Assembly: GCA_017470145.1 (NCBI GenBank)
Contig: JAFUFB010000023.1
Span: 1-47,381 of the forward strand
Origin: Clostridia bacterium
GTDB taxonomy: Bacteria > Bacillota > Clostridia > Christensenellales > Aristaeellaceae
Reading direction: 5' to 3'
Length of the DNA stretch: 47,381 nt
In this document: piece by piece, positions 29,140 through 46,888 of the stretch
Layout of the letters: the number at the start of each line of letters is the position of its first letter
Numbering within the stretch: the first letter of the stretch is position 1
Notes under the pieces: generated by a model
Seen by the model: only the letters and a program-made list of their open reading frames with translations
Told to the model about the DNA's origin: nothing
Databases searched by the model: none
Translations under genes and position numbers: made by a program

Positions 29140-29984
29140 TGAAAAACGTATTCCGTAAGAGCGCGCTGGATAAGATCTCCTCGCCGGACCAATTGGATAA
29201 GGTGCTGAAAGTAACCTCTCCCATGTCCTGGCTGGCCTTGCTGGGGGTGACGCTGATCATCGCCCTGGTGGTTGCCTGGTCCTTTGTAGGCTCCCTCCCC
29301 AGCACAATTACCGCCTCCGGGGTCATTGTCAGCGCGAATACGTCTACCAATACCATTCTGTCCACCCAGCGGGGAACGGTGCAGCGCGTGGGCTCCAGCG
29401 GCGCGCGAGTTTATGACGGAACGGCGGTGCTGGAGCTGGCCACCAGCAGCGGTACGGAGCTGGTGAATTCCAACCTTTTGGGCACGGTGTCAGAAGTGCT
29501 GGTAAAGCCTGGCGACACGGTGGAAAACGGTACAGAGATCCTGCGGGTGATCCCGTCCATGACGGAAAATCAGAAGGAGATCGTCGTTTGTTTCGTCCCC
29601 ATCTCCGACGCGGATAAAATTAAACGGGAAATGACGGCGAATGTCTCCCTCACCTCTGCGGACAGCAATTCCTATGGCCATATGACAGCCCGTGTCATCA
29701 ATGTGGACGCCTGGGCCACCTCTCAGAAAGCCATCTCCGCCATCGTGGGCAGCGATAACAGCATGGTGAGCGTCCTCAACGGGGAAGGCAAAGGCGTTTG
29801 CGCGGTGGCCTGCGAGCTGAAGACGGATCCTTCCACCGCCAGCGGCTATGCCTGGTCCAATGAGAAGGGGAAAAAGGCAACCTTGGCCGCTCCGCAAATG
29901 TGCTCTGTTCGCATCGTGACAGGCAACGATAGGCCGATCTCTAAGCTGTTCGCGAAGCTGAAGGACATCTGGGAGGGGAAATAA
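29139..29984 (+). CDS. NHLP/NHLM bacteriocin export membrane-fusion protein (HlyD-like)
   Basis: This 281-residue protein has a cytoplasmic N-terminus, one membrane helix (about 32-52, WLALLGVTLIIALVVAWSF) and an extracytoplasmic biotinyl/lipoyl-like barrel with GTVQRVG, NLLGTVSEVLVKPGDTV and NGTEILRV. Size and order match the HlyD-like subunit that accompanies NHLM-type ABC exporters (TIGR03794 type). It lacks the long coiled coil of Gram-negative HlyD. It overlaps its neighbours by one base on both sides, so it is part of one operon with the sigma gene and the two ABC genes. Confidence 0.9.
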   Translation: MKNVFRKSALDKISSPDQLDKVLKVTSPMSWLALLGVTLIIALVVAWSFVGSLPSTITASGVIVSANTSTNTILSTQRGTVQRVGSSGARVYDGTAVLELATSSGTELVNSNLLGTVSEVLVKPGDTVENGTEILRVIPSMTENQKEIVVCFVPISDADKIKREMTANVSLTSADSNSYGHMTARVINVDAWATSQKAISAIVGSDNSMVSVLNGEGKGVCAVACELKTDPSTASGYAWSNEKGKKATLAAPQMCSVRIVTGNDRPISKLFAKLKDIWEGK

Positions 29985-32178: not shown

Positions 32179-34731
32179 ATGAATGAGCGATTTGAATTAA
32201 AGAAGACCGAGCAGTATTACACCCATTCGCCGGAGGATGCGATCCGTGTGCTGGAAGGGAGCGTCTATCTCTATATCGTTCCCTGGTCGGAGGAGACCGG
32301 CAAGGCGGGAAAGCGGGTCGCTTTTTGCGAAGTGGAAGCGGAGCATAGTATTCCTTCCTTCGCCTGGAAGGATGGCAGCTATCGCCAGTGGCGCTTTCTC
32401 ATTATCGCGAAGACGGATCATGTTCAACTGGAGATCATCCCCCGCGGCGCGACCCTGATTTTGAAAAAGCGTTTCCTGGCCGGGGCAAACATCCAAACCT
32501 TCGATGTCGAAGGCTATGAAGGCAGCCTGGTTGAATATTATATCAACAACGAGCTGAAGGACGATATCTTCCTCCAGCGGGCGGAAAGAAACGCGCCGGA
32601 GGATCGACAAAAGACCTTTACCGCCATCGGTCAAGCTGTGGGTGGAGATCAAAATGGCGCCTTCGGCCTGGGAGACCAGGCGGATCTGATGTATGCCACT
32701 CTGGCCTTCGCCTGCAAGAAGGCCAAAATTGATCTGCTCAGCAAGGATAAATTGGAGACCATCTGTTCCGAAATGACCTTCCCGGAGATGGCGCAGGCCT
32801 CCCAATTGATCTGCCGGGAAGTAGTGCTGGATGTCAATTGGCAGAAATTCGATTGCGGCGTGCTTATCGTTTCCGTGGAGGAGCATCCCATGGTTTGCTA
32901 TCCCCGGGGTGGGAAGTACAGAGTTTTTGATCAGGCCACTGGCAAGGATGTGCCCTTGACGAAGAAGCTGCTGGGCCAAATCAATCCCAAAGCCTGGTCC
33001 ATCCGGCGCACGCTGCCCCGGCAGTCGTTGAAGCGGAAGGATATCATTGGCTTTGTCAAAAAGAGCTTCTATCGCCGGGATGTCATCAGCCTGATTGTGC
33101 TGGGACTCATTACGACGCTGATCGGCGTTCTGCAGCCAAAGTTGAATCAGCTGATCTATGATGATTATATCCCCATGGGGGATACCAACGTGCTGATCCA
33201 GGTTTGTGCGGTCATCGCTACCTGTATGATTGGCAATGTGTTCATCTCTATCGTCAAACAGCTGCAGGAATACCGCCTGCCCAGCCGAGTGGAATATGAG
33301 CTGCAGGACGCGGTTTATTGGCGGCTGTTCCAGCTGCCGGAGAGCTTCTTCCGGAAATATGACAGCGCGGATTTGGCTCAGCGGGCCATGGATGTGGGCC
33401 AGCAGGCCAATAAAATTGCCACCCTGCTCGTGTCCAACGCCCTGACGCTGGCGCTGAGCCTCATCTATTTCATCCAGATGTTCAAGTATTCCTGGAAGCT
33501 GGCGCTGGTGGGGCTGTTGATGATCGCTGTGCTGAGCCTCATCGTCTTCCTGATGACGAAGCGCACCATGAAGTATGAAACGGTGATCCGGGAGGAAAAT
33601 GGCGAAGCCACCGGCAAGCTGTATCAGTATCTGGAGGGCGTGGATAAGATTCGCATGGCCGGCGCGGAAGAAAAAGCCATTCTGGAATATACGCTGCCGG
33701 TGGCTCGGGCAAAACGGGTCATGGTGCAGGAAAACCATATTTCCAGCTTCACTTCGATTCTCATCGACGCCGGGCCGACGATCTTTTCCATGGTGCTGTA
33801 TTTCATGATGATCAAGAGCAAGATCGACTTGTCCGTCGGTTCCTTCATGGCGTTCAATACGGCTTTCAGCTCCTTCAACGCCGCCGCTTTGGGTTTTGTT
33901 GGTGCGGCCATTTCCTATCTGCAGTTGAAGCCCGGGCTGAAGCGCTCCGCCCCGATTCTGGAAACCGCGGTGGAGGACGAAGGGGAGAAGGATGTCATCG
34001 AGACATTGGATGGGGATATCCTGGTGGATCATGTCACCTTTGGCTATTCCGAGGATCGGCTGGTGCTGAAGGATATGAGCCTGCATATTCACAAAGGAGA
34101 ATATGTGGCGCTGGTGGGTGCTTCCGGCTGCGGCAAGTCCACGCTGCTAAAGCTGCTGCTGGGCTTCGAAAAGCCCCGCTCAGGGCGCATCCTGTATAGC
34201 GGCAAGGATATGAGCAGCATCGATAAGCATTCTCTCCGGAAGAATATCGGCGTGGTTCTGCAAAATGGCAAGCTGATCTCCGGTAGCATCTATGACAATA
34301 TTACCATCACGGCGAATAAGCCTACTATGCAAACCGTGCAATCCGTCATTGAGGACGTGGGCCTGAAAGAGGATATTGCCGCCATGCCCATGGGATTGCA
34401 TACGGTGGTTAATGAATCCGGCGGCACCATCTCCGGCGGACAGCAGCAGCGGATTCTGATCGCCCGGGCCATCATGAGCAACCCGGCGGTGCTGTATTTT
34501 GACGAGGCCACCAGCGCCCTGGATAACCTGACCCAGGCGAAGGTCTGTGAAAGCCTGGAAAAACGGAATATGACCCGGCTGGTGATTGCCCACCGCCTTT
34601 CCACCGTGGAGAAGTGCGATCGGATTATTGTGCTGGATCAGGGCCGCGTGGTGGAAGAAGGAAATTATGAGCAACTGATGGCACAGCATGGGCTGTTCTA
34701 TCAAATGGCCATTCGACAGATTGCGGAATAA
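32179..34731 (+). CDS. NHLP export ABC transporter, second permease/ATPase
   Basis: This 850-residue partner matches the TIGR03797-type subunit. It has a 290-residue N-terminal region without peptidase residues, which starts NERFELKKTEQYYTHSPEDA and contains a beta-rich cupin- or CNMP-like stretch. A six-helix permease follows (about 300-560), then an ATPase with Walker A GASGCGKST near 648, signature ISGGQQQRILIARAIM and Walker B LYFDEATSALD. It would form a heterodimer or act in tandem with the C39 transporter. GGGGGAGG lies 11 bases before the ATG; 50 bases separate it from the previous gene. Confidence 0.93.
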   Translation: MNERFELKKTEQYYTHSPEDAIRVLEGSVYLYIVPWSEETGKAGKRVAFCEVEAEHSIPSFAWKDGSYRQWRFLIIAKTDHVQLEIIPRGATLILKKRFLAGANIQTFDVEGYEGSLVEYYINNELKDDIFLQRAERNAPEDRQKTFTAIGQAVGGDQNGAFGLGDQADLMYATLAFACKKAKIDLLSKDKLETICSEMTFPEMAQASQLICREVVLDVNWQKFDCGVLIVSVEEHPMVCYPRGGKYRVFDQATGKDVPLTKKLLGQINPKAWSIRRTLPRQSLKRKDIIGFVKKSFYRRDVISLIVLGLITTLIGVLQPKLNQLIYDDYIPMGDTNVLIQVCAVIATCMIGNVFISIVKQLQEYRLPSRVEYELQDAVYWRLFQLPESFFRKYDSADLAQRAMDVGQQANKIATLLVSNALTLALSLIYFIQMFKYSWKLALVGLLMIAVLSLIVFLMTKRTMKYETVIREENGEATGKLYQYLEGVDKIRMAGAEEKAILEYTLPVARAKRVMVQENHISSFTSILIDAGPTIFSMVLYFMMIKSKIDLSVGSFMAFNTAFSSFNAAALGFVGAAISYLQLKPGLKRSAPILETAVEDEGEKDVIETLDGDILVDHVTFGYSEDRLVLKDMSLHIHKGEYVALVGASGCGKSTLLKLLLGFEKPRSGRILYSGKDMSSIDKHSLRKNIGVVLQNGKLISGSIYDNITITANKPTMQTVQSVIEDVGLKEDIAAMPMGLHTVVNESGGTISGGQQQRILIARAIMSNPAVLYFDEATSALDNLTQAKVCESLEKRNMTRLVIAHRLSTVEKCDRIIVLDQGRVVEEGNYEQLMAQHGLFYQMAIRQIAE

Positions 34732-34737
34732 GGATGG

Positions 34738-35115
34738 ATGGGAACGATGGAAAGAGTTTATACGGAAGATTCGATCCGCTTCATGGATCAGGGGAGGGAA
34801 AAAGCAGCCTTCCAGGAAAAGGTGGAGAATGGGGTGGTCCTCTTCGCCCTGTCCGGGGCCATCTCTGGCGAGATTACGAACACCTTGATGGATGAGATGA
34901 CGGCGCTGATCGTTGCCGGCCAGGGCCTTGTTGTGGATTTGGATCGGGCCACCTATTTATCCGCCTCGGCCATGGAGGTTTTCCTCCGGGTGGAAAAACG
35001 GCTGGAGGATCAGGGAAAGTATCTCCGAATTGTCCAGATGCCCCAGGAAATCTATGACACCTTCAAGAGTCGGGGTATGCATGAATTATTGGAAATCGAG
35101 GTGAAAAAGGCATGA
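34738..35115 (+). CDS. STAS domain protein (anti-sigma factor antagonist-like)
   Basis: This protein of about 125 residues has a STAS core (about 32-122): VVLFALSGAISGEIT, LIVAGQGLVVDLDRATYLSASAMEVFL and LRIVQMPQEIYDTFKSRG. The segment DLDRATYLSASAMEVF aligns with the SpoIIAA loop that holds a phosphorylatable Ser (normally DLS.v.fiDSSGl), and Ser residues are present. STAS proteins bind anti-sigma kinases in partner-switching; no SpoIIAB-like kinase is seen here, so the partner may be the Ser/Thr kinase nearby (inference). ATG 34747 is an alternative start. It overlaps the TIR-FHA gene by four bases. Confidence 0.82.
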   Translation: MGTMERVYTEDSIRFMDQGREKAAFQEKVENGVVLFALSGAISGEITNTLMDEMTALIVAGQGLVVDLDRATYLSASAMEVFLRVEKRLEDQGKYLRIVQMPQEIYDTFKSRGMHELLEIEVKKA

Positions 35116-36764
35116 TCTGCAACGCGAAGCCCTATGAAGGGAAGGATGCTTATCTTTTCGTCAGTTATGCCCGCAAGGATGCCGGCATTGTTTATCCCTT
35201 GCTGGAGCGGCTGGCCAGCGAAGGCGTTCGCCTGTGGTATGATGCGGGCATTCATAGCGGGGAAAACTGGCCAGAGGTGATCGCGGAGCATCTCGATCGC
35301 AGCGCAGCCTGCCTGGTGTTTATGACGGTCAACGCCGCCAGCTCCCATAACTGCTATAGCGAGCTGATTTTTGCTGTTGAATCCAAGAAGCCCTTGATTC
35401 CGATTCGATACAACGACGCGCCTCTTTCCTTAGGCATGCGGATGATGATCGGCGCGGTGCAGTGGCAGGAGATCCGGGGGATCCCCACGGACGGGGATGT
35501 ATCCAAAATCCTATCCCTGGATCTGGTTCGCCCGACCCATGGTATTGCGGATCGGTCCATCGTGACCCAAAGCTATGTGACCGATGAGCAGGAATCTGCG
35601 CCGAAAGTAACCTGGAAGCCGGAACCAATCATGTCCCATCCGGAGCAGGAGGAACCTGCGCCTGTCGTTCCGCAGTCGCAGCCGGTTCCTGAAACGCCGG
35701 AACCAGCCATTCCGCAGTTCCAGCCGGAGCCGAAGGATCAACCTGTGGTACCGCCGGAACCGGAAGCACCCAAAGCAGAACCCCTAACAGAACCCCAAAA
35801 ACCTGCGCAGGAGCCGGTAATACCGGCGCAGGAAGTTCCCGCCGCATCGGAGCTAGTCCCCCATGAAAAGACCCATAAGGACGAGCCAAAGCCTATTGCT
35901 CCGAAGCCGGCCCCTGCGGAGCCGGCAAGCACCTCCCGCCACAGGAGATCGGGGAACCGGGAAATAGAGATTAACAAAACGCAGGCGACCCAGCAGGATT
36001 GGGAAGAAGCCCCCGGAGAGAAAACCGTGGCGGAGCCGGCAGGAGAGGATCCCTTTGAAAAGACCGTCGCGGAAAACGCGGAGGATATCTTCGATCAAAC
36101 CATCCGTGCCGCGAAGGATATCCTGCCCACCATTGTGGCTCTGATGGGCGATGGCTTCCGTTCTCGGGGAAAGATGGGCGTCACCGTGATCGGCCGTTCC
36201 AAAGCGAAAGCGGATGTGGTTGTGCCGGATCCAGATCGCAAGGTGAGCGGAGCCCATTGTAAAATTGTCAGCCTGGATGGCATCCACTCCGTGGAAGATA
36301 TGGAGTCCACCAATGGCACCTGGATGGATGGCGAGGAATTGCCCGCGGGAGAACGCCGGCCGGTGGATCGCATCTGTGAACTGCTGCTGCATCGAGTTCG
36401 GGTTTTGGTGGCCTTTGACGCAGATGCGAACGCGCTCTGGAACACGGAAACCCTGCTGTCCCTGCAGTGCGAGGAAACGGGAGAGATTCAGTATCTGTGG
36501 AAGGACCAGTTGAAGCTGGGTCGCAGCGCCCCCTGGCGGGAGAATGTGCTTTCGGATCATCATGTCAGCTTTGTGCATGCCAGCCTTCGGATCATAGGGA
36601 AGAATTGCCTGCTGGTGGATGAACATTCCACCAATGGAACCTTTATCAATGGCGAGAAACTGGACGCCGGGGCGGAACGCAATCTGGAAACCGGGGATGT
36701 GATCCGTATCGGCGGCAATCACTTTATTGTAACGTTGTACCATTTTGAAGGAGGAGAGGCTTGA
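35112..36764 (+). CDS. TIR domain plus two FHA domains, Pro-rich linker
   Basis: This 550-residue cytoplasmic protein has a TIR domain at 12-150: DAYLFVSYARKD, VRLWYDAGIHSGENW and HNCYSELIFAVE. Glu84 sits at the usual NADase catalytic position. A long Pro/Glu/Gln linker (about 175-330) follows, then two FHA domains (about 340-420 and 455-545). Their cores are GRSKAKAD..VSGAHCKI..STNGTWMDGEEL and LGRSAPW..VSFVHASL..STNGTFINGEKL. FHA domains bind phosphothreonine, which fits the Ser/Thr kinase two genes downstream. TIR domains cleave NAD+ or assemble signalling scaffolds. Thr-rich KTV repeats before FHA1 (EKTVAEPA, EKTVAENA) resemble phospho-acceptor sites. It overlaps both neighbours, so it is translationally coupled. 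Confidence 0.88.
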   Translation: MICNAKPYEGKDAYLFVSYARKDAGIVYPLLERLASEGVRLWYDAGIHSGENWPEVIAEHLDRSAACLVFMTVNAASSHNCYSELIFAVESKKPLIPIRYNDAPLSLGMRMMIGAVQWQEIRGIPTDGDVSKILSLDLVRPTHGIADRSIVTQSYVTDEQESAPKVTWKPEPIMSHPEQEEPAPVVPQSQPVPETPEPAIPQFQPEPKDQPVVPPEPEAPKAEPLTEPQKPAQEPVIPAQEVPAASELVPHEKTHKDEPKPIAPKPAPAEPASTSRHRRSGNREIEINKTQATQQDWEEAPGEKTVAEPAGEDPFEKTVAENAEDIFDQTIRAAKDILPTIVALMGDGFRSRGKMGVTVIGRSKAKADVVVPDPDRKVSGAHCKIVSLDGIHSVEDMESTNGTWMDGEELPAGERRPVDRICELLLHRVRVLVAFDADANALWNTETLLSLQCEETGEIQYLWKDQLKLGRSAPWRENVLSDHHVSFVHASLRIIGKNCLLVDEHSTNGTFINGEKLDAGAERNLETGDVIRIGGNHFIVTLYHFEGGEA

Positions 36765-38686
36765 TGAATAGGACTGGATGTATCTGTGCGTCGTTGCTGT
36801 TGACTCTCCTGCTTTCCGCCAGCGCTGCTGCGGATGGATGGGCGCCCCTTGACGCCTATGGACCGTCAAACGCCTTCGGAGATAGCACGCTGCAGGAAAC
36901 CACAACGGAGGAATCCACACCGGAAACTGCGGTTTTGGGGAATCAGAATCAGATCCTCGCCCAGGGCCAGCTGTCGAATAATGCTACCAGGTATGTGCTG
37001 TATAGCGATGGCCAATTGGAACTGGCCGGCGGCGACCTGATGATCCGCCTGGCGGATGAAAACATTCTGGCTTCCAATCTGTCGAAGATCACCTCCATCG
37101 TCATTCGAGAGGGCATTACCCAGATCGGCAGCCGAAGCTGCGAAAACCTGACAGCCCTGACCAGCATTACCTTTGGGCCGGACACCAAGACCATCGGGAA
37201 TTATGCCGTGTCCAACTGTACGGCCCTGAGCATCGTGAAATGGGGTGGCGTCACACAGATTGGTGAATATGCCTTTACAGGGTGTTCCGCCCTGCAAAGC
37301 GTGAACCTGCCGGAAGGGGTGCTGACCATCGGCGCCCATGCCTTCGACAGCTGCTCGGCGCTGAAGAGTGCCAGCATTCCCGCGTCCATTCAGCGGATGG
37401 GAACTGGTATTTTCAACAACTGCTCTTCCTTTTCCACGGCTATGGTCCAGGGTGACGTGCCCGAAGCTGCATTCAGTGGGTGTACATCGCTGAACGAAAT
37501 CATCTGCTCCGATCAAACCCTGGTTGTGGGGGAGAGAGCATTCTTCGGCTGCTCCCGTCTGAGCGTGGTTTCGTTGGGATATGGGCTGCAGCGGATCGAT
37601 CGGAACGCCTTTGCCAATTGCGTAGAATTGAGTGACATTGCCTTGCCCAATTCCCTCCGAGCGATCGATGAGTATGCCTTCTCAGGATGCAGCAAGCTGC
37701 AGATGATCTCGATTCCGGAAAACGTGGGTGTCATTGGCGATTATGCCTTCCAGAATTGTACCAGCCTGAATCGGCTGGCAATCATGAACAATGGAACTCC
37801 CTTGGAGCTGGGGGAATATGCTTTCTATGGTTGCGCAGCCATGCCGAGGCTGGACCTTTCCGCTCGGGTGACCGCGATCAAGGGCCACTGCTTCCAAGGC
37901 TGTACGCAGTTGGAATCTGCCGTCTTGGGATCTCAGGTTCAGGAGATGGGTCGGGATGTCTTTAATGGCTGCTCTGCGCTGTATCAGATTGAGCTGGATG
38001 TGGAACGCATCCCTGATAACGCCTTCAAGGGCTTGACCAATTTGGAGACGGTTACCTTGGGATCCAATGTGAAGGAAATTGGGGATTATGCTTTCTCCGG
38101 ATGTACCTCCCTGCGAAACTTTGGGATGACTGCGAAAGTAGGAAAAATCGGGAATGGCGCCTTCCAGAGTTGTTCCGCCTTGACGAGCATGGACTTGAGC
38201 CGGAGCGATCTGATCATCGGCGAAAGGATCTTCCGCGATTGCTCCGCCCTGGATACCTTAACCGTCGGGATGAAGGACGTTCCCCCGAATGCATTTTCAG
38301 AATTGGCAGGATTGAGAAACCTGACAGTTTTAACTTCCGTCAAGGTGCTGGGCGAAAGCGCCTTCGAGGGCTGCGCTAAGATCACGGAGGTATTTCTTCC
38401 CCAGGATGGCATAGAGGAGATTCATGATCGGGCCTTCGCGAGATGCTCGGCCTTAACACGGATCTATATCCCCAAGACGCTCCGAAAGATTGGACGATTC
38501 ATTTTTGATGAGTGCAACAGAATAGACATGGTCGCCTTTGAAATGTCTCTGGAGAACTATGACGATAGTAAGAAAGTGGATCGAGGAGTTAGAAAAGGTG
38601 ACTGGCAGGCCGGTGCGCAGTTAAGTGGTAAATTAAAATTCAGCTATAAGAAAGAAACCTGGGATAACGAGAAGGAGAAGAAATAA
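36764..38686 (+). CDS. Secreted BspA-type leucine-rich repeat protein
   Basis: This 640-residue protein has a signal peptide (about 1-24, CICASLLLTLLLSASAAA) and a Thr/Glu-rich spacer. Some 18 LRR_5 repeats of about 23 residues follow (about 95-600), with the pattern IGxyAFxgCssLxxvxlPxxvxx. It lacks an LPXTG or other obvious anchor, and the tail is short and charged. BspA-type repeats mediate binding to surfaces or proteins in gut bacteria. It starts at ATG 36764 in a TGATG overlap with the TIR-FHA gene, behind GAAGGAGG, so it is made with the signalling proteins. A role as receptor or docking partner for exported peptides is speculation. Confidence 0.88.
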   Translation: MNRTGCICASLLLTLLLSASAAADGWAPLDAYGPSNAFGDSTLQETTTEESTPETAVLGNQNQILAQGQLSNNATRYVLYSDGQLELAGGDLMIRLADENILASNLSKITSIVIREGITQIGSRSCENLTALTSITFGPDTKTIGNYAVSNCTALSIVKWGGVTQIGEYAFTGCSALQSVNLPEGVLTIGAHAFDSCSALKSASIPASIQRMGTGIFNNCSSFSTAMVQGDVPEAAFSGCTSLNEIICSDQTLVVGERAFFGCSRLSVVSLGYGLQRIDRNAFANCVELSDIALPNSLRAIDEYAFSGCSKLQMISIPENVGVIGDYAFQNCTSLNRLAIMNNGTPLELGEYAFYGCAAMPRLDLSARVTAIKGHCFQGCTQLESAVLGSQVQEMGRDVFNGCSALYQIELDVERIPDNAFKGLTNLETVTLGSNVKEIGDYAFSGCTSLRNFGMTAKVGKIGNGAFQSCSALTSMDLSRSDLIIGERIFRDCSALDTLTVGMKDVPPNAFSELAGLRNLTVLTSVKVLGESAFEGCAKITEVFLPQDGIEEIHDRAFARCSALTRIYIPKTLRKIGRFIFDECNRIDMVAFEMSLENYDDSKKVDRGVRKGDWQAGAQLSGKLKFSYKKETWDNEKEKK

Positions 38687-38734
38687 GAACGATTTTATCG
38701 ATTGGAAATAGACTGATCGCAAGGGGGTGAGCAA

Positions 38735-41700
38735 GTGGGAGATATTGCACAGTTCTGTCCGCTGTGGGGTGAATGGGAAGTAGACAGCAAACTGGGCACA
38801 GGTTCCTACGGAACAGTTTGGAAAATGCGTAGGCGGCTGTTCAACGGAAAAGAATACTTCGCGGCCGTGAAGCATATCTCCATCCCCTACGACGAGAGTG
38901 AAGTAAGGCATTTACTGGAAGAAAATGTCTTTGCGGATGATGAATCGGCGGTCAATTATTTTCAACAAGTATTACAATCCTTGGTGATTGAGATTGATGC
39001 AATGCATCAACTTCGAGGATATACGAATATTGTATCCTATGAAGACCATAAGATCATTCAAAAGGATTCCGGCATCGGATATGATATTTTTCTGCGCATG
39101 GAGTTGCTGACTCCTCTGACAGAGAAACTGCGGGCCGGGATGAGCCTGGAAGATATCGTCAAGTTAGGAATAGATATATCGACTGCGATTGAAATATTAA
39201 ATAAGCATGGCCTCATCCATCGAGATATAAAGCCGCAGAACATCTTTATCAACGATACAGGTGATTACAAGCTGGGGGATTACGGAACCGCGAGAGCCCT
39301 ACAATCGGAAGCAACAGCAATGTCCCGTAAAGGAACATATAACTATATGGCCCCTGAAGTGTACAAGAGCAAACAGGCGGATAGCAGAGTTGATATATAT
39401 TCCCTAGGAATTGTGTTGTATCGCCTGTTGAATAGGAATCGGCATCCCTTTTTACCGCAAGATAAAGAAATCACCAACGAATTGAATGATCGGGCACTTC
39501 AGCGGAGAATACAGGGAGAATCATTGCCACAGCCCATAGATGCAGACCCTGAACTAGCTCGCATCGTGTTAAAAGCTTGCGCATTCCAGCCTGAGGATAG
39601 GTATGCCAACGCTTCCGAATTGAAGCAAGATCTGTTGCGATACAAAGAGAATAGACTTGACATTGAGCAATCTGAGCAGGAAGAATTGGATAAAACAATT
39701 TCGGAAGCTCAGCTGCTATCGCGCAGAAAGAACAGAAGAGACAGCGCATTAGAGAAACCTCAGCCAAAGGAAACAAAACTAAAAGAAACCGATTTATTGG
39801 AGGCTGAGGCTACAGTCGAGTTGGGTAATGTTGATAATGAGCTAGATGAGAATCTGTTGATCGACATAGAAATTGATTCCCAACCAAATGATGTTTTACA
39901 AAGTCTGGAGGAAGCAGAGGGAGAATTAGAGGGAGAACCAGAGCAAGAATCGGTTGATGATGAGATCAAATTTGATTCCCCTCAAACAGATGACGAGATT
40001 GCTCAAGAGGAATATGAAGAGGAAAACCAATCAGCTGCATTCGAAAGTATGGCTGAGGTTCGGGTTAACTGCTGCGATGAAAATGGTAAACTTTTAAGAT
40101 ATCGTATTTTCAAAATTCCATATGGAACAGCAAGCGCTATCGAAGCTGAAGATGTTGATGGGTATTTTCTCATAAGCGCAAAAACCAAGGAAGTGAAGGT
40201 TGATACAGAAGGAAAGGTTGATTCGCCGGTAAAATTCACGTACAGGAAAAAAGAGAATGGTGATAGGGAAGAAGTAATTTCTCCTGTAAGTTCTACAGAT
40301 GAAAAAGATGATTCTAGTGAAAACAGAAATCCGCAGAAGATCATGAAGCTTCTTCTGATCCTTGTAGCGCATTTTGTGTTGTATTGGATTATAATGTGTC
40401 TTCTTAGCATGAGTGCGCTTGGTAATTTTGAATATGAAAAAGCGAAGAAATATATGGATTTAACGCCGCTGTTTTCTACTGTTTTCAAGTCAACCTATGA
40501 TAAAAATGAGCTGATGAGAACTCAGAGAGAAAGAAGGAACGAAACGAACACATCGACAACGGATACAACGGCTGGGGATACGTCGATCACAGAAACACCG
40601 ACAACGGATGTAGCGACAAATGAAAAAGACGAAACAATCTTAACCGTGAGTACGGGGGTCAATAACATCTATATCGGTGCTGGAGAAATAACGCATGTGA
40701 AATTTATAGCACCTTCTGCGGGCACATATGCATTTACGTCTCTGGGGAATGCAGGCGTATACGCGTATTTGTATGATTCATCAACAGCAACCACAGAAAT
40801 AGCACACGATGATGCAGGCGGAAGTGATCATGATTTCAATCTTGAGTACACTTTACAAGCGAACCAGACAATCTATTTAAGTGTAAAGTACTTTAATTTC
40901 GCAAAGAGTGGACGATTCCAATTGAGCATAACAAAGAAAACAGAACCAGCTGCGACTACTACTCCGGTGATCGATTCAGTAACGATGGGAACCAACAATA
41001 TTTCAATCATGGTGGGAGAAACAAAACGAGTTAAGTTTGTTGCGCCTTCGGCTGGAAGCTATGTTTTCACATCTGTTGGAACGGACGATACCTATGTATA
41101 TTTATATAGATCAGCCAAATCTTCTGATTATTTCAGAAGTGACGATAACAGTGGAACGGATCAGAATTTTGAAATTGTATATACCATGAGCGAAAAACAG
41201 GCAATTTATCTTGATGTGAAGTTTACTAACGCGGAGAAGAGTGGCACGATTGTTTTGGCTATATCCCCCAAAGTAAACCGCACCTTTGAACTGAATTCGA
41301 CAGTTAGCTCTGAAAAGGGATGCGTTACAGTTAGTTGGACGGATTCTGAAAATAAATCACCATACACGGTCCTATATCAGTATGTAGGGAACAGTGATGT
41401 GGTTCAACCCAATTATTGGGCAAGTGGCCAGGAAGAAGGATCAAAAACAAATTCAAAGTCTTATACTATTGGCAGTTTAATCCCAGGGAAAACTTATAGA
41501 ATTGAAGTACGAGATCGCGATGGAACTTCCATAAATCGCACCTATGAACTGCCTGCTCCGGCTACTTTTGTCGATGGGAAACTAAAAGCCTCTTCGATCA
41601 ACACTACGATTAATCCAAGACAGAAGGATTATGGCGCCGCTGATATATCCTCATCGAGCATAAGTGCGCTGCGGGCTTCAAATATTGTGTCCAATAGAGG

Positions 41701-41989
41701 AGCAATAGAATACGGGTTCCGTTATTCCGTAAGCTATCCTCAACTGGCATATGATCGTCAATTCTTTACTCAAATTGCGATTACTGCACCAAACGGTTAT
41801 GTTGAGTGCGAAGTGTATTGGAACAATGAATTTGAAGCAAAATACAGTGGATATCATTGGTATATGCTTGGTGATTGGACCTTTTCACAACTGTATGAAT
41901 TGAATGCTACGATCCCCAAAGGAACGTGGAAGGTTGATCTGTATTGGGATGGAATGCACGTGAATCAGAATACTTTCGAGGTGCAATAG
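38735..41989 (+). CDS. Membrane Ser/Thr protein kinase with extracellular PPC and FN3-like domains
   Basis: This 1084-residue protein starts at GTG behind AAGGGGGTGA. The kinase domain (14-310) is complete: GTGSYGTVW loop, Lys46 in FAAVKH, His162-Arg-Asp164 in HRDIKPQN, DYG at 182 in place of DFG, and GTYNYMAPEVY. An acidic juxtamembrane stretch (about 315-530) follows, with one helix at about 537-557. Outside the cell come a Thr-rich linker, two similar PPC-type beta domains (about 635-735 and 748-850; each with a KF(I/V)APSAG(T/S)Y core), an FN3-like domain (about 855-945) and a C-terminal beta domain. No PASTA repeats occur, unlike PrkC. Base composition is much more A/T-rich than upstream genes. 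Confidence 0.9.
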   Translation: MGDIAQFCPLWGEWEVDSKLGTGSYGTVWKMRRRLFNGKEYFAAVKHISIPYDESEVRHLLEENVFADDESAVNYFQQVLQSLVIEIDAMHQLRGYTNIVSYEDHKIIQKDSGIGYDIFLRMELLTPLTEKLRAGMSLEDIVKLGIDISTAIEILNKHGLIHRDIKPQNIFINDTGDYKLGDYGTARALQSEATAMSRKGTYNYMAPEVYKSKQADSRVDIYSLGIVLYRLLNRNRHPFLPQDKEITNELNDRALQRRIQGESLPQPIDADPELARIVLKACAFQPEDRYANASELKQDLLRYKENRLDIEQSEQEELDKTISEAQLLSRRKNRRDSALEKPQPKETKLKETDLLEAEATVELGNVDNELDENLLIDIEIDSQPNDVLQSLEEAEGELEGEPEQESVDDEIKFDSPQTDDEIAQEEYEEENQSAAFESMAEVRVNCCDENGKLLRYRIFKIPYGTASAIEAEDVDGYFLISAKTKEVKVDTEGKVDSPVKFTYRKKENGDREEVISPVSSTDEKDDSSENRNPQKIMKLLLILVAHFVLYWIIMCLLSMSALGNFEYEKAKKYMDLTPLFSTVFKSTYDKNELMRTQRERRNETNTSTTDTTAGDTSITETPTTDVATNEKDETILTVSTGVNNIYIGAGEITHVKFIAPSAGTYAFTSLGNAGVYAYLYDSSTATTEIAHDDAGGSDHDFNLEYTLQANQTIYLSVKYFNFAKSGRFQLSITKKTEPAATTTPVIDSVTMGTNNISIMVGETKRVKFVAPSAGSYVFTSVGTDDTYVYLYRSAKSSDYFRSDDNSGTDQNFEIVYTMSEKQAIYLDVKFTNAEKSGTIVLAISPKVNRTFELNSTVSSEKGCVTVSWTDSENKSPYTVLYQYVGNSDVVQPNYWASGQEEGSKTNSKSYTIGSLIPGKTYRIEVRDRDGTSINRTYELPAPATFVDGKLKASSINTTINPRQKDYGAADISSSSISALRASNIVSNRGAIEYGFRYSVSYPQLAYDRQFFTQIAITAPNGYVECEVYWNNEFEAKYSGYHWYMLGDWTFSQLYELNATIPKGTWKVDLYWDGMHVNQNTFEVQ

Positions 41990-42005: not shown

Positions 42006-42122
42006 ATGCCGATAGAGTTGTGCATTGGAATTTTAGGAAACGAAGCGGAAGAGTGGACGATTGGAAAAGGGGATGGATACGCTCGTGCTTATTATACGGA
42101 AGAAACAGATAGAGAGGAATGA
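42006..42122 (+). CDS. Possible 38-codon ORF coupled to the next gene
   Basis: A short frame, MPIELCIGILGNEAEEWTIG continuing to DREE, fills most of the gap after the kinase and ends in a four-base ATGA overlap with the next start. No good ribosome binding site precedes it and I recognise no family. It may be a real small protein, a gene remnant or chance. Confidence 0.25.
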   Translation: MPIELCIGILGNEAEEWTIGKGDGYARAYYTEETDREE

Positions 42123-43003
42123 TGAATATGCATGTTTTGGAAATACTTTCAGATAGATATCCACAATTGCGGCTTCCGGTCAGGACGGGGATGCATGATA
42201 CGGAGTTGTATAAGAATGTGGTCTTGCGGGGCGAGAAGATATCCGATCATGAAAATGCTTTCAGCATGGATCCGAGAGATCAATTATATACATGTAATAC
42301 ACCCGTAGGAGCAATTGATGCGCTGCAGTTGCATCGGAGAGAAGATTTTGAACACGCATACCAGGCATTGGCCTATCGGTGCGAACCAGTTGAAATTCTT
42401 CCCTCTGTGGGGGCGGGGATCATTCGTGGGCTGATTAACTGGCAGAAGATACGGAGTCACAAAGCAGCCTATTTGGCGGCTGGCCATTTGGACTGGTCGG
42501 CGGAATTTAAGCGGTTTACTGCAGATAAAAGCAATTACCTGGATGCATTGATCTTGTTGAGCAGCGGACCATACAGCGACATTCCCGCGGAACGGTTACA
42601 TCTGTCGGAAAATGAATGGCGAAGTAAATCAGTTCAGATCAGAATGTATCATGAATTGACGCATTTCATTTGCTTGAAGATAGCCCCGGAGAAGAAGGAT
42701 GCTTTGCGGGATGAAATATATGCAGATTGCATAGGTCTCATCGCGGCCTTTGGAAAATACGATACATACTGGGCCAAGCTTTTCTTGGGAATCGAAGGTG
42801 ATGAGTTTCGTGAAGGCGGTCGGCTGGAACATTATGCTGATGGGAATGTGACTGATCATATTCCTCGTGCACATTCTCTGATCCATGAAGCGGCAGAGGG
42901 TGTGGCGCAGAATTGGAGAAAAGTATCTATCGAGGAATGGGAACGACTGGACAAACAAACGAAAGAAGAATGGATATTTTCATTATTGACGAAGATATAC
43001 TGA
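42119..43003 (+). CDS. Predicted HELTH-motif zinc metallopeptidase-like protein
   Basis: I do not recognise the family of this 294-residue protein. It has no signal peptide or membrane helix. A zincin signature is visible: YHELTHFICLKI (His178, Glu179, His182), then DEIYADCIGLIAAFG, whose Glu199 could be the third ligand. That spacing is shorter than thermolysin but fits some glu-zincins. The N-terminal half is unassigned. Start choice is uncertain: ATG codons at 42119, 42122 and 42128 follow AGAGAGG, the latter two with better spacing. It lies between the kinase and the peptide precursor genes, so it could process peptides or their leaders, or respond to kinase output (inference). Confidence 0.55.
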   Translation: MMNMHVLEILSDRYPQLRLPVRTGMHDTELYKNVVLRGEKISDHENAFSMDPRDQLYTCNTPVGAIDALQLHRREDFEHAYQALAYRCEPVEILPSVGAGIIRGLINWQKIRSHKAAYLAAGHLDWSAEFKRFTADKSNYLDALILLSSGPYSDIPAERLHLSENEWRSKSVQIRMYHELTHFICLKIAPEKKDALRDEIYADCIGLIAAFGKYDTYWAKLFLGIEGDEFREGGRLEHYADGNVTDHIPRAHSLIHEAAEGVAQNWRKVSIEEWERLDKQTKEEWIFSLLTKIY

Positions 43004-43299: not shown

Positions 43300-43611
43300 A
43301 TGGATTTGCCGGAGCTTGTGTTGGATGATGAGTCTGTAGAGGCCATTGAAAGGGCGAAAAGTGTTGATGAAATCAGGAAGATTCTTCATGCAAGGGGAAT
43401 AGAAGCCAACATGGAGGATATCCAGGGTATCTTCAACCCCGCGCCTCATGAAATGGCTGAGAAAGAGCTTGAAAACGTGACTGGAGGAGGTGTGGTATCG
43501 TCAATCTGGAATTATATCAATGCTCTGCGTTACAAAGCAGGAGGTGGAGGCTTCTCTAACGGAGGCGGAGGTAATGGGGGATTTGGAGGTGGTGTGAGCG
43601 GGTCGAGATAA
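43300..43611 (+). CDS. GG-leader peptide precursor with Gly-rich core
   Basis: This 103-residue peptide has GGAGG before its ATG. The acidic helical leader (about 1-64) contains SVEAIERAKSVDEIRKILHA and ends KELENVTGG, matching the Nif11-like (N11P) style of leader with a double-Gly cleavage site. The predicted core has a short VSSIWNYINALRYKAG segment. Runs of Gly with Ser, Asn and Phe then lead to the end VSGSR. It is likely a C39/NHLP exporter substrate. The Gly-rich tail recalls microcin B17- or glycine-rich RiPP cores, but no azole synthetase is visible in the window. Function inferred. Confidence 0.75.
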   Translation: MDLPELVLDDESVEAIERAKSVDEIRKILHARGIEANMEDIQGIFNPAPHEMAEKELENVTGGGVVSSIWNYINALRYKAGGGGFSNGGGGNGGFGGGVSGSR

Positions 43612-43741: not shown

Positions 43742-44056
43742 ATGAATGAACAAATGCTACAAAAACTAGAGGAACTTGTAAAGAATGAGGCTTTCGCGGA
43801 TTCGTGGTCAGCTGCTAATTCAAAAGAAGAACGTATGAAGCTTCTTTCAGTAAATGGAATTGAGATTAGTGATGAGGAATATGAAGATTTGATGAACTCT
43901 GCGGCGCCGGAGGAAATACCTGAGGAGGAACTATCTAACGTTGCTGGAGGCATTATTTATAGTATACCCAAATTAACTCCTTTCGGTTATGTTTGTCCAA
44001 GGTGTAAAAAACGTGTTTCTTTCTGGGGATTCCATCTCTGCCTGAATCGATGGTAA
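43742..44056 (+). CDS. GG-leader peptide precursor with Cys/His core
   Basis: This 104-residue peptide has GGGATGGAG before its ATG. The leader (about 1-69) is acidic and helical and ends EEELSNVAGG. The core of 35 residues is distinctive: IIYSIPKLTPFGYVCPRCKK, then RVSFWGFHLCLNRW. It holds CPRC and HLC, a C-X2-C-X9-H-X-C arrangement able to bind Zn or form thioether or disulfide links. It is a candidate exporter substrate. The core is unlike the three WKW peptides, so it may have a different modification or role. Confidence 0.72.
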   Translation: MNEQMLQKLEELVKNEAFADSWSAANSKEERMKLLSVNGIEISDEEYEDLMNSAAPEEIPEEELSNVAGGIIYSIPKLTPFGYVCPRCKKRVSFWGFHLCLNRW

Positions 44057-44169
44057 GGATCAAAACAAGAGCCAATGCTTGAAAAGAATGGTTAATGTTT
44101 GCAAGAGTAGATAATACATTTGGGCACTGGTCACATTAGAGGTAGCATCTAGACAAAGGAGTGGAGCTT

Positions 44170-44799
44170 GTGGAGAAAGATCAAAATGCTCGACTTGAAA
44201 AGCGCAAGAATGCAGTACAAGCGATTAGTGATAAGATGATTCAGGATGGATATCAACGTCACGATTTATCGCTTGACCTACGGACAGCAAACACACATTC
44301 GATAGTATCAGTTTTGCCGTTCTGTGTATTATTTGTATGCTTATTTGGATTCATAGCCGGGTGGAACAGATTTGCTGAAATCAATGTTCCGATCTTGTTA
44401 GTGGCATTTATTATTTCACTATTCATCCACGAGGGAATTCACGGCCTTTTTTACGGAATCTTTGCTAAAAATCATTTTCGAGCAATTGAGTTTGGAGTAA
44501 TATGGAAGAGCTTAAACCCATATTGTTATTGCAAAGATCCGTTAAGCAAAAGTCGGTATTTAATAGCTGTGTTAATGCCTGGAGCGATTCTTGGAGGAAT
44601 TATAGGGATAATAGGGGTCTCTATTGCATCAGCAAATTTGGTTTTATTTAGTGTTATCTCTTTCATAGGGGCAAGCGGGGACTTCTATGTTGCGTGGAAG
44701 TTAATTAATTATCCTTCAAACGGAAAATGTATGCTGGTTCTTGATCATCCAGAATTGCCAGGTTGTATTTTGTTTACAGGGGAACCTGCTATAACTTAA
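44170..44799 (+). CDS. DUF3267 family membrane metalloprotease-like protein
   Basis: This protein of about 209 residues has four hydrophobic segments (about 45-65, 72-92, 133-155 and 158-178). It carries the zinc motif FIHEGIHGLFYG in the second (His87, Glu88, His91) and a conserved Asp in GASGDFYVAWKL as third ligand. This is the DUF3267 zincin family, predicted intramembrane-type proteases of unknown substrate. I start at GTG 44170 with AAAGGAG eight bases upstream; the GTG at 44161 overlaps that site. It sits between peptide precursor genes, which suggests leader degradation, peptide maturation or producer immunity (inference). Confidence 0.82.
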   Translation: MEKDQNARLEKRKNAVQAISDKMIQDGYQRHDLSLDLRTANTHSIVSVLPFCVLFVCLFGFIAGWNRFAEINVPILLVAFIISLFIHEGIHGLFYGIFAKNHFRAIEFGVIWKSLNPYCYCKDPLSKSRYLIAVLMPGAILGGIIGIIGVSIASANLVLFSVISFIGASGDFYVAWKLINYPSNGKCMLVLDHPELPGCILFTGEPAIT

Positions 44800-44849: not shown

Positions 44850-45167
44850 ATGTTGGAACAAAGCAGAGCGGAAGTTATTGGAAAGTTCTTAACAGACGAT
44901 CCAGAACGGGCAAATGAGATTTTATCTCTGACACCGGAAGAAGCAACGGAGAAAATTAATTCCTTTGGATTTGATTTTACCGTAGCTGAATTGGAAGAAT
45001 TTGGAAAGAATTTGAAAGCAGCAGCTCAGAACGGAGGCGAAATTGGAGAAGAGGAACTCGAAAATGTCGCTGGTGGAATCGCGGTAGCAGCGGCAACATT
45101 CTACTTTACAGTATTTGCTGGATGTGCTGTCCTTGGTGGGCATGCAGCGAATAATTGGAAGTGGTAA
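44850..45167 (+). CDS. Nif11-like leader peptide precursor, WKW tail (1)
   Basis: This 105-residue peptide has a leader (about 1-75) starting MLEQSRAEVIGKFLTDDPER and ending EEELENVAGG. The core of about 30 residues is hydrophobic (AVAAATFYFTVFAGCAVLGG) and ends ANNWKW. ATG 44850 follows AGAGGTG; the longer frame from 44763 overlaps the previous gene. Leader layout (LTPEEATEKINSFGFDFTVAE) is the same as in the next two genes. It is probably cut and exported by the C39 NHLP transporter and may be modified by the nearby radical SAM enzyme (inference). Confidence 0.82.
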   Translation: MLEQSRAEVIGKFLTDDPERANEILSLTPEEATEKINSFGFDFTVAELEEFGKNLKAAAQNGGEIGEEELENVAGGIAVAAATFYFTVFAGCAVLGGHAANNWKW

Positions 45168-45188
45168 TAAGAAAGGATGGTAATGATT

Positions 45189-45488
45189 ATGTTAACGCAG
45201 GAAAAAGCGGATATCATTACTAAATATCTTGGTGACAATGAGGATATTAGGAATAAGCTTTTTGATCTAGAACCTCTTGAAGCGACCAAGGAGCTTAATG
45301 CGGCAGGCATCGATTGTACTGTACAAGAATTGGTAGAGTATGGAAAAGCACTGGAAATGGCGTTGGCGCAAGACGAATTGTCTCCTGAACAACTGGAAAG
45401 TGTAGCAGGAGGCACGGCTGGGGCAACAGTTATCATTGCAGGTGTAACTATTGCTTGGCTAGTAGCGAAGATGAAATGGAAATGGTAA
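45189..45488 (+). CDS. Nif11-like leader peptide precursor, WKW tail (2)
   Basis: This 99-residue peptide has a leader that starts MLTQEKADIITKYL and ends DELSPEQLESVAGG. It is nearly identical to the leader of the next gene, showing recent duplication. The core (about 24 residues, TAGATVIIAGVTIAWLVAK) differs, yet also ends MKWKW. I start at ATG 45189, equivalent to the next gene's start; codons further upstream lie in the ribosome binding region (AAAGGATGG). Same inferred fate as its neighbours. Confidence 0.84.
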   Translation: MLTQEKADIITKYLGDNEDIRNKLFDLEPLEATKELNAAGIDCTVQELVEYGKALEMALAQDELSPEQLESVAGGTAGATVIIAGVTIAWLVAKMKWKW

Positions 45489-45510
45489 GATGAAAGGATG
45501 GTAGGAAGAA

Positions 45511-45825
45511 ATGTTAACACAGGAAAAAGCGGACATCATCACTAAGTACCTAGATGAAAATGAGGACAAAAGGAAAGAACTTTTTGAACTTGAACCTGCT
45601 GAAGCAGCTAAGGAACTTAATAAAGTAGGAATTGATTGTACTGCACAAGAGTTGGAAGAGTACGGGAAAGCTCTACAGATCTCTTTGGCAAAAGACGAGT
45701 TGTCTCCTGAACAGTTGGAGAGTGTAGCAGGCGGTGTAGTCACTGTGAGCATTGGTGTAGCTGTTGCTTGGGGTATAGCTGGTGCTGTTGTAGGTTATGC
45801 AGTCAACAGCAAGTGGAAGTGGTAA
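45511..45825 (+). CDS. Nif11-like leader peptide precursor, WKW tail (3)
   Basis: This 104-residue peptide has the leader MLTQEKADIITKYLDENEDK and onward, ending DELSPEQLESVAGG. The core of 29 residues (VTVSIGVAVAWGIAGAVVGY) contains small-residue GxxxG-like spacing and ends NSKWKW. Leader residues are about 80% the same as in the preceding gene while cores diverged, the classic pattern of RiPP diversification. AAAGGATGGTAGGAAG lies upstream. It is the closest precursor to the radical SAM gene, separated by a stem-loop. Confidence 0.85.
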   Translation: MLTQEKADIITKYLDENEDKRKELFELEPAEAAKELNKVGIDCTAQELEEYGKALQISLAKDELSPEQLESVAGGVVTVSIGVAVAWGIAGAVVGYAVNSKWKW

Positions 45826-45841
45826 TTAGCACCACAATTTT

Positions 45842-45871
45842 AGTGGGCGCTCTATTAATAGAGCGCTCACT
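45842..45871 (+). terminator. Palindromic stem-loop between precursors and radical SAM gene
   Basis: A 15-bp inverted repeat with one G-T pair centred on TTAA (AGTGGGCGCTCTATT and its complement), followed by ATATTTCTG rather than a pure T-run. It could be a partial terminator or an mRNA stabiliser that keeps peptide transcripts more abundant than enzyme transcripts. Confidence 0.6.
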
Positions 45872-45901
45872 ATATTTCTGTGCAGAAGGAGATTTTGTAA
45901 C

Positions 45902-46888
45902 ATGAGTGTTTGCTATCCTACAGTGATGAACATAGAGCTTACAACCAATTGTCCGTTGCATTGCCCACAGTGCTATTGTACGCTAACTGGTGGAAATAAT
46001 ATTGAACGTGAGAAAGCGATATATTGGATAAGAGAGGGATCAAAACTCGGAGTAAAGGATGTAATGCTCAGCGGAGGAGAAACACTTTGTTATCCGTATT
46101 TATACGAGATTATCGAAGCTGCAAATTTGTATTGTGGACATTCGAATGTTTCATTATCAGGGGCTTATTTCACTCAACAAGTGTTTGATAAACTCCAACA
46201 GGTAAAGGTTAGTAGAATTTTTATCTCTTTAAATGGCTCCAATGAAGAAGTTAATAGTTTATCCAGAGATGGCTTTGCATTATCGCTCAATGCTTTGGAG
46301 CTGTTGAAGAAAAACAAATATAGAAATACTATCATCAATTGGGTTATGCACCGAAACAATGCAGACGATTTTCCTAATATGGTAAAAATAGCTGAAAAAT
46401 ATGATGTATCTACAATCGTGATACTTGGATTAAAACCAGATTCAAACCATTCCTTAGGCTCGATTCCGACAAAAGAACAGATGAAAAATGTCAGGGATAT
46501 AATTAGATCGTATAAAGGTAAGGTAAGAATAATGGTCGAAAACTGTTTTTCTCCCATGCTTGCTTTGCTTGGAGAAACACTTTTATTCGGTAATTTAAAT
46601 GTTGGGAGAAATAACGGATGTGGAGCGGGGTATGATACTTTTAGTGTAAACGTAGATGGCTTATTATCACCATGTAGACATCTAAACATATATGAACAAT
46701 TTGAAAATGGGAATGAGTATTGGAATTCTTCACCAATTCTTCAGGAATTGAGGAAGCTTCGTGAAGGCGAGGCCGAGGAACCTTGTAATAAGTGTTCATA
46801 TACAGATTATTGTAAACCGTGTTTTGCAATCACGAAAGAAGTCGAGAAAAGACTGTACAAAGGGAATCCATTTTGTCCCCTGCAATAG
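45902..46888 (+). CDS. Radical SAM/SPASM peptide-modifying enzyme
   Basis: This 328-residue enzyme has the SAM-cluster motif C17-X3-C21-X2-C24 (NCPLHCPQC) and the GGE-type motif MLSGGETL. A C-terminal SPASM region follows: CGAGYDTFSVNVDGLLSPC, then CNKCSYTDYCKPC and a last Cys in PFCPLQ, enough for two auxiliary [4Fe-4S] clusters. SPASM maturases such as AlbA, PqqE, StrB and DarE install thioether or C-C/C-O cross-links in ribosomal peptides. There is no clear RiPP recognition element at the N-terminus. GAAGGAG precedes the ATG. Adjacency to three precursors ending WKW makes them the natural substrates (inference). Confidence 0.88.
   Translation: MSVCYPTVMNIELTTNCPLHCPQCYCTLTGGNNIEREKAIYWIREGSKLGVKDVMLSGGETLCYPYLYEIIEAANLYCGHSNVSLSGAYFTQQVFDKLQQVKVSRIFISLNGSNEEVNSLSRDGFALSLNALELLKKNKYRNTIINWVMHRNNADDFPNMVKIAEKYDVSTIVILGLKPDSNHSLGSIPTKEQMKNVRDIIRSYKGKVRIMVENCFSPMLALLGETLLFGNLNVGRNNGCGAGYDTFSVNVDGLLSPCRHLNIYEQFENGNEYWNSSPILQELRKLREGEAEEPCNKCSYTDYCKPCFAITKEVEKRLYKGNPFCPLQ

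Follow-up and report, generated by a model that had tools for sequence, protein, structure and literature searches.

What does a radical SAM/SPASM enzyme recognize in three neighbouring precursor peptides whose cores have little in common beyond their last three residues? The question is raised by the window (the whole stretch of DNA analysed here, 47,381 nucleotides from a Clostridia bacterium), in which the P0001-P0003 precursor genes lie upstream of the gene for the enzyme, P0004. The first-pass annotation had proposed the shared Trp-Lys-Trp (WKW) end as the enzyme's target and as a potential site of cross-linking. In the comparison of tails presented below the finding is broader than WKW: the motif appears to be the C-terminal Trp, and a bridge within WKW is not needed to account for it. 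We consider it probable that the locus represents a RiPP family exported by an NHLM system, with the C-terminal Trp as the target of the radical SAM enzyme.

The precursor genes and the export cassette

The precursors and the enzyme are encoded as follows.

43300..43611, + strand: companion precursor P0007, with a Gly-rich core and without a Trp end
43742..44056, + strand: fourth Trp-ending precursor, P0006, core ...CPRCKKRVSFWGFHLCLNRW (TIGR03798 28.6 bits, below cut-off)
44850..45167 (coding to 45164), + strand: precursor 1, P0001, 105 aa, Nif11-like leader to VAGG, core IAVAAATFYFTVFAGCAVLGGHAANNWKW
45156..45164, + strand: WKW codons of P0001
45189..45488 (coding to 45485), + strand: precursor 2, P0002, 99 aa, core TAGATVIIAGVTIAWLVAKMKWKW
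45477..45485, + strand: WKW codons of P0002
45511..45825 (coding to 45822), + strand: precursor 3, P0003, 104 aa, core VVTVSIGVAVAWGIAGAVVGYAVNSKWKW
45814..45822, + strand: WKW codons of P0003
45841..45872, + strand: 14-bp hairpin between the precursors and the enzyme gene (MFE of the enclosing 65 bases -28.5 kcal/mol)
45902..46888, + strand: radical SAM/SPASM enzyme P0004, 328 aa, with the C-terminal Trp as its proposed target (PF04055, Fe-S cysteines, tree)

The three precursors at 44850, 45189 and 45511 are placed as previously annotated, with leaders ending in VAGG and tails before the stop of NWKW (P0001), KWKW (P0002) and KWKW (P0003). As the Lys codons of WKW differ (AAG in P0001, AAA in P0002, AAG in P0003), the tail is more than a fresh copy alone. 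The leaders close with [EQ]LE[NS]VAGG, the double-Gly cleavage motif being present in all three, and are identical at 36/74 positions between P0001 and P0002, at 31/75 between P0001 and P0003, and at 59/75 between P0002 and P0003. The cores had been described as unrelated, and with the last three residues removed cores 1 and 2 and cores 1 and 3 indeed align no better than shuffled sequences (500 shuffles; fraction at least as good 0.21 and 0.26), while cores 2 and 3 align marginally better (500 shuffles; fraction 0.07). The Nif11 label is maintained in a weaker form: TIGR03798 scores of 22.8-23.9 for P0001-P0003 (E 4e-5 for P0001) are under the curated cut-off of 32.3, and PF07862 gives 18.6 for P0001 (cut-off 23.8) and no match for P0002 and P0003, and thus we name these leaders Nif11-like only. 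An RBS-like AGAGGTG precedes P0001, and the hairpin downstream of P0003 may possibly act as an attenuator or a processing site. The P0006 core terminates in LNRW and hence carries a C-terminal Trp as well, the residue before Trp in the four Trp-ending precursors of the window being Lys in three cases and Arg in one. The genome of the window also encodes three Nif11 genes adjoining another, radical SAM-like gene, none of them Trp-ending; this locus (L010) was removed ahead of counting.

Upstream of the three precursors originally annotated are the Nif11-like precursors at 43742 and 43300 and an NHLM cassette.

28528..29139, + strand: the cassette's ECF-type sigma factor
29139..29984, + strand: NHLM-type HlyD secretion protein (TIGR03794 139.7 bits, below cut-off 156.2)
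29984..32128, + strand: C39 peptidase/ABC exporter of NHLM type, predicted to cleave behind the double Gly (TIGR03796 963.7 bits, over the cut-off of 853.3)
32179..34731, + strand: second NHLM ABC exporter (TIGR03797 711.8 bits, above cut-off 709.4)
34738..41989, + strand: STAS, TIR/FHA, BspA-type LRR and Ser/Thr kinase genes, in the interval from exporter to precursors
42119..43003, + strand: DUF7005 protein with invariant HExxH-like residues (PF22541 210 bits)
44161..44799, + strand: DUF3267 membrane zincin-like protein (PF11667 80.3 bits; HEGIH read in the sequence)

The export cassette spans 29139-34731, with both ABC proteins above curated cut-offs and the HlyD protein below. The invariant residues of the DUF7005 protein are H178, E179, and H182, and a relative of it is fused to ABBA and radical SAM domains in locus L012; its predicted structure, a confident one, has no PDB match under E 0.001, an absence that does not in itself show a new fold. 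Phage or plasmid carriage was considered and set aside, with no match at E<=1e-30.

Precursor tails with and without the enzyme

The enzyme is rare near the lineage of the window, homologues being present in 1 of 45 genomes of the genus (E<=1e-30), 2 of 308 genomes of the family (E<=1e-40) and 1 of 396 genomes sampled from the order (E<=1e-60). Besides Bacillota, the clade is represented, judging from record titles, in Spirochaetota, Synergistota, and other phyla. The hosts are anaerobes, and record titles place many of them in the gut or the rumen. When genome contigs were scanned with two queries, the window enzyme and its relative within the family, 58 loci were obtained, and the 59 loci studied are these plus the window and L009, minus L016, a duplicate located on the same contig as L009. 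Loci were picked by enzyme homology and not by their precursors, the window being the exception. PF07862 misses the window's own precursors and was rejected as a probe, and a leader alignment (model A2) was used instead, for which 35 leaders were chosen from 67, all of Trp-ending precursors. An earlier HMM, likewise seeded with Trp-ending precursors, gave 103 Trp ends in 136, a more biased count because of this seeding. As many loci are short metagenome contigs, an absent neighbour gene carries little meaning.

With the A2 model, precursors were recognized in 41 of the 59 enzyme loci, 129 in all; 100 of them are Trp-ending, every one of the 41 loci has at least one such precursor, and 18 of the 59 gave no leader match. 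Among leaders matching at E<=1e-20 in the same set, 72 of 74 precursors end in Trp. Genome G303 possesses Trp-ending precursors on further contigs too (L117, L118), and with these two included, 102 of 131 unique precursors are Trp-ending, at least one in each of the 43 precursor-bearing loci. The other 29 include some with strong leader scores (L024, L037). The cores in enzyme loci vary from HSVNIDINW and VPPDIAYYPW to hydrophobic stretches of more than 40 residues. Small Trp-ending peptides of another type are found near the enzyme in L046, L052, and L061, which have no leader match, and these stay outside the counts.

The situation is different where the enzyme is not encoded. The A2 model matched 38 of the 308 family genomes, 36 of the 38 without the enzyme, and in these enzyme-less genomes one of 69 precursors is Trp-ending (same model, same thresholds; the 69 originate from the best-match loci of 28 of the 36 genomes and from 18 further regions thereof, control loci L088 and L098 having yielded no precursor). 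Fisher's test for 102/131 versus 1/69 gives 8e-29, a P value that ignores relatedness, in a comparison in which the controls are all from the family of the window and most enzyme loci are from elsewhere. For leaders at E<=1e-10 the numbers are 96/107 with the enzyme versus 1/9 without (p 1e-6, relatedness again ignored), and within the family itself they are 9/11 (4/5 in the window, 5/6 in G303) versus the same 1/69. The lone enzyme-less exception is G068 (L100). G531, an enzyme-less genome from the order sample, matched the leader model at E<=1e-10; five precursors were read there, and all end in residues other than Trp. Controls L100, L104, L105, L107, L108, L111, L114, and L115 have as neighbours ABC genes that resemble the NHLM exporter of the window, and, with several controls thus placed beside such genes, export does not explain the Trp.

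The last residue is also the sole fixed position in the 102 Trp-ending tails. Positions -1 to -11 are diverse (Arg in 51 and Lys in 13 at -1), and the tails that related enzymes meet include AIPW, DINW, and YYPW. A Trp at -2 is present in 6 of the 102, from three loci (three in the window, two in L023, one in L015), W-R-W being seen in L023 and L015. WKW as a conserved unit was therefore rejected from the tails read, and it is not supported as the motif of the clade or as its cross-linked unit. The more general idea of the first-pass annotation, that a C-terminal motif kept amid changing cores marks an enzyme target, is supported: what tracks the enzyme clade is the Trp end, not WKW. One testable residue is thereby supplied for a radical SAM clade that has no name.

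The radical SAM enzyme and its partners in relatives

P0004 scores 67.0 bits with PF04055 (cut-off 29.5) and 20.9 with the SPASM model PF13186, just below the cut-off of 21.5. CxxxCxxC and seven SPASM-type cysteines are conserved in 48-50 of 50 homologues: C17, C21, C24, C240, C258, C295, C298, C304, and C307 in 50/50 and C325 in 48/50, with the distant L061 and L067 left out of this count and kept in the others. P0004 thus has a complete set of Fe-S ligands. The PqqE, AhbD, and MftC models match all 29 clade members tested, below cut-offs where cut-offs are given, the scores of P0004 being 83.5 for PqqE (cut-off 381.35) and 69.9 for MftC (cut-off 265), which places it in neither equivalog. 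By sequence profile its nearest solved relative is PqqE (6c8v, E 2e-27), followed by SuiB (5v1q). TIGR04103, the Nif11-class radical SAM maturase 3 (cut-off 725), is absent from the 17 families matching P0004 at E<=1e-10 and gives 39.0 for L026 and 49.6 for L040, which are thereby not members either. A leader-binding domain (RRE) was not recognized in two N-terminal extensions tested; for the L040 and L043 enzymes, an N-terminal RRE/PqqD domain was rejected, Pfam giving no support. In a tree of 51 enzymes, from which short and over-long ones were excluded, the window enzyme falls inside a supported clade of seven without an ABBA domain.

Elsewhere among the 59 loci the enzyme is often accompanied by a predicted ABBA (indole) prenyltransferase-fold domain, fused to it in 19 loci and encoded as a separate companion in 9. 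The fused domain is assigned by structure prediction, as an alpha-beta-beta-alpha barrel; by sequence, this N-terminal domain has no Pfam or NCBIfam match and weak chance PDB matches only. Fusions include ABBA-rSAM, ABBA-rSAM-IDI, and DUF7005-ABBA-rSAM, isomerase partners being present as well. PF12640-type proteins (peptide arginase) recur in the relatives' loci and were not found in the window; in the 17 loci with a peptide arginase, Lys is never found at -1. The counts for ABBA, IDI, arginase, and DUF7005 were made with HMMs from their own clusters, with Pfam/NCBIfam checks on single members. A nitrile-hydratase-like tail on some ABBA proteins was dropped, being a weak match only.

The relatives without the ABBA domain are informative with respect to the Trp. 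ABBA was not found in any of the 18 genomes with an ABBA-less enzyme, of which some may be incomplete (two positive controls matched), nor in the assembly of the window, G000, which is 84% complete. Of these 18, 15 have recognized precursors, with at least one Trp-ending in each. In L017 and L018 a short extension remains, which matches ABBA weakly, at 35-37 bits. On the tree of 51 enzymes the ABBA-less label changes 8 times, 4 of these changes being forced by well-supported branches. As Trp ends persist without ABBA over several such changes, it is the radical SAM enzyme to which the Trp belongs, and prenylation seems to be an addition in relatives.

Candidate reactions at the terminal tryptophan

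In the mechanism that we prefer, a single radical SAM/SPASM enzyme would receive several hydrophobic cores by way of their Nif11-like leaders; its target, the C-terminal Trp, would be fixed, with the remaining core free to vary. The modified peptide would then be cleaved at the double Gly and exported by the NHLM C39 exporter. Judging by the tails, the terminal Trp is the likely site of modification. A Lys (or Arg or ornithine) preceding it would be a source of positive charge, and in the ABBA-bearing relatives the same indole would be prenylated in addition. The preferred reaction at this Trp would be an oxidative decarboxylation or some other Cbeta-radical chemistry, comparable to that of MftC on a terminal Tyr; a reaction within the residue is preferred because the free terminal carboxylate and the aromatic residue are constant and no partner is fixed. 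Oxidative decarboxylation as such, suggested by analogy, is a tentative assignment.

Among the best-matching families, AhbD catalyses an oxidative decarboxylation. PqqE, the best-scoring family and the nearest solved structure by sequence, makes a C-C Glu-Tyr cross-link within PqqA, a chemistry unlike the one proposed, and SuiB makes the Lys-Trp cross-link of streptide; that both are cross-linking enzymes counts against decarboxylation. The mycofactocin precursor ends in Val-Tyr, and a dedicated chaperone is involved. MftC resembles P0004 in being a radical SAM/SPASM enzyme of similar family scores directed at a C-terminal aromatic residue, and differs in its Val-Tyr end, versus the Trp end of the window precursors. 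According to a review, MftC decarboxylates the tyrosine oxidatively before joining it to the adjacent valine (PMC8326336), and thus decarboxylation plus a local bridge at Trp would also be possible.

A cyclophane, a Lys-Trp or a Trp-Trp bridge made by the enzyme inside WKW would agree with the presence of WKW, with differing Lys codons, in all three neighbouring precursors, with the recurrence of W-R-W in two other loci, and with SuiB being among the solved relatives, and yet it is improbable, given the scarcity of Trp at -2, the lack of a fixed partner from -1 to -11, and tails such as AIPW that related enzymes meet. SuiB, DarE of darobactin, and the triceptide cyclases resemble the proposed enzyme in being SPASM enzymes with aromatic precursor residues as substrates, but they have defined partner residues, while in the clade of the window the terminal Trp is the sole constant. 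In the streptide type, Lys stands at a fixed spacing ahead of Trp, and no residue between -1 and -11 is fixed in the 102 tails. In triceptides, an aromatic residue is followed by two residues, the second of which is bridged; since the conserved Trp, which ends all 102 tails (the set being so defined), has none after it and Trp at -2 is confined to the 6 tails, this reading is disfavoured. The darobactin type combines a W-x-W core with a DarE-type enzyme, and WKW itself is present in the window precursors; among the families listed for P0004, in lists limited by length or E-value, there is no DarE model. With Trp at -2 rare and no other position fixed, the reaction common to the clade cannot be a Trp-Lys or Trp-Trp bridge; such a bridge is possible in the window locus itself.

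In other systems a terminal Trp is the site of prenylation or halogenation, and thus the Trp could serve an enzyme that is missing here. If the Trp were kept for indole prenylation, the radical SAM enzyme would act elsewhere in the core and the prenyltransferase of the window would be lost or lie outside the assembled contigs, which we regard as unlikely: ABBA was not found in the genomes of the ABBA-less relatives (some possibly incomplete) or in G000, the Trp ends are retained over several apparent losses of the domain, and no other core position is conserved on which the radical SAM enzyme could act. Still less credible is a role of the Trp in export or in a mature membrane-active peptide, with no enzyme target. 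The hydrophobic cores and the cationic aromatic end would fit it, as would the match of P0003 to TIGR03949, the lactobin/cerein class IIb bacteriocin model (23.5, above the cut-off of 21.5; P0001 and P0002 are below, at 14.4 and 14.9), and for single peptides the unmodified membrane-active helix of the first-pass annotation is conceivable. It does not explain why the Trp depends on the enzyme, being all but missing from enzyme-less precursors, several of them beside NHLM-like ABC genes, and in enzyme loci the Trp is retained by cores as short as HSVNIDINW.

Parts of the preferred scheme, with the terminal Trp as the enzyme's target, have parallels in the literature. One example is PalQ of Paenibacillus alvei, which prenylates the conserved C-terminal Trp of PalX, an NHLP precursor (PMC10853753), and whose activity is abolished by residues appended after the Trp (PMC13290415). 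The conserved leader, the conserved C-terminal Trp, and an enzyme selective for it are shared features, whereas the leader is NHLP, the enzyme is isoprenoid-synthase-like, and the three-gene cluster is without a radical SAM enzyme (PMC10853753). Another example is MppC of Moorena, which geranylates a Trp of a Nif11-led lanthipeptide in a leader-requiring reaction; MppC/MppE have in common with our loci the Nif11-like leader, the Trp indole as acceptor, and the ABBA fold (as in the relatives of the window enzyme), and they differ in that the pathway is that of a cyanobacterial lanthipeptide with a stand-alone ABBA enzyme, none having been found in the assembly of the window (PMC12715784). SrpI-type brominase and BhaC1 are reported to act on a C-terminal Trp too, as flavin enzymes with other chemistry. 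The peptide arginases OspR/FlmR, akin to the PF12640-type proteins of the relatives and with none found in the window, count N11P (Nif11) precursors among their substrates (PMC12703449, PMC10028609). The spliceotide enzyme PlpX likewise belongs to the radical SAM enzymes and has precursors of the NHLP/Nif11 kind (PMC11002830), and in a survey of thioamide clusters Nif11 and indole prenyltransferase both appear as entries of one figure legend (PMC8120280).

Among titles and abstract starts of open-licence PMC papers we found no ABBA-radical SAM fusion and no account of the window enzyme clade, a clade that is tied to prenyltransferase/radical SAM/isopentenyl-diphosphate isomerase fusions of which none was found described. 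It is conceivable, if somewhat doubtful, that a new RiPP class is represented, in which a radical SAM/SPASM enzyme, largely blind to the rest of the core, subjects a free C-terminal Trp to new chemistry, with the fusions of relatives also prenylating that residue and the arginases converting Arg next to it into ornithine; the product might be, for example, an indolyl enamide formed by oxidative decarboxylation (-46.005 Da). An enzyme needing little beyond a leader and a terminal Trp would, if this is true, be a tool for modification of peptide C-termini. In appearance, the products are membrane-active peptides that anaerobes export.

Further precursors and the intergenic hairpin

The window and its relatives encode further precursor types, and the enzyme gene is preceded by a hairpin:

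Window 43300-43611; locus L009, 11040-11636; locus L015, 1813-2109: Gly-rich-ended companion precursor, without terminal Trp
Window 43742-44056; L015, 1329-1784: precursors whose cores contain a CPRC...C element
Window 45841-45872: strong hairpin in the gap that separates precursor and enzyme genes

The Gly-rich companion type of the window is found again in two relatives of the window clade (L009 and L015), and a family-model search revealed a weak likeness of the window member to GrrA-type cyclophane precursors (E 0.01). The tails of the CPRC...C precursors differ, being LNRW in the window versus RRWR in L015, where Trp is not the final residue. The hairpin, at which a clear T-run was not seen, may set the precursor-to-enzyme ratio.

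DUF7005 and ABBA-type proteins

Window 42119-43003: DUF7005 protein
Locus L012, 6167-9073: fused counterpart
L063, 6825-8084; L064, 6680-8047; L040, 7666-8031: ABBA-type proteins containing or adjoining a stretch weakly resembling the nitrile hydratase alpha chain

Comparison of DUF7005 homologues showed H178, E179, and H182 to be invariant and D198, E199, and D203 to be near-invariant. Its structure is predicted confidently (pLDDT 90), and comparison of the model with the PDB returned no match under E 0.001. In L012, DUF7005, the ABBA domain (a predicted prenyltransferase fold), and radical SAM are joined in one fusion. The weak nitrile hydratase likeness is supported in L064 and L040, and its basis in L063 is alignment only.

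Other putative modification genes and further Trp ends

L010, 5406-8216 (contig C27, the window's own genome): second Nif11 cluster
L009, 7591-9381: YcaO protein, adjoining the radical SAM gene and Trp-ending precursors
L052, 9298-9640; L046, 9503-9664; L061, 12591-12731: small Trp-ending peptides with other leaders, near the enzyme
L100, 9071-9418 (genome G068): Trp-ending Nif11-like precursor

The L010 cores are long and Cys-containing, none ending in Trp, and the cluster adjoins a 488-aa gene, different from the window enzyme, that is called radical SAM-like from its CxxxCxxC motif. The nearest type for the YcaO protein is the ribosomal S12 methylthiotransferase accessory protein, with a score of 225, below the cut-off of 700. 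The L052 peptide occurs in two copies of identical protein sequence. The L100 precursor is the sole Trp-ending Nif11-like one among the control genomes; an enzyme homologue was not found in genome G068, and the L100 region also possesses NHLM-like ABC genes and kinase-like genes.
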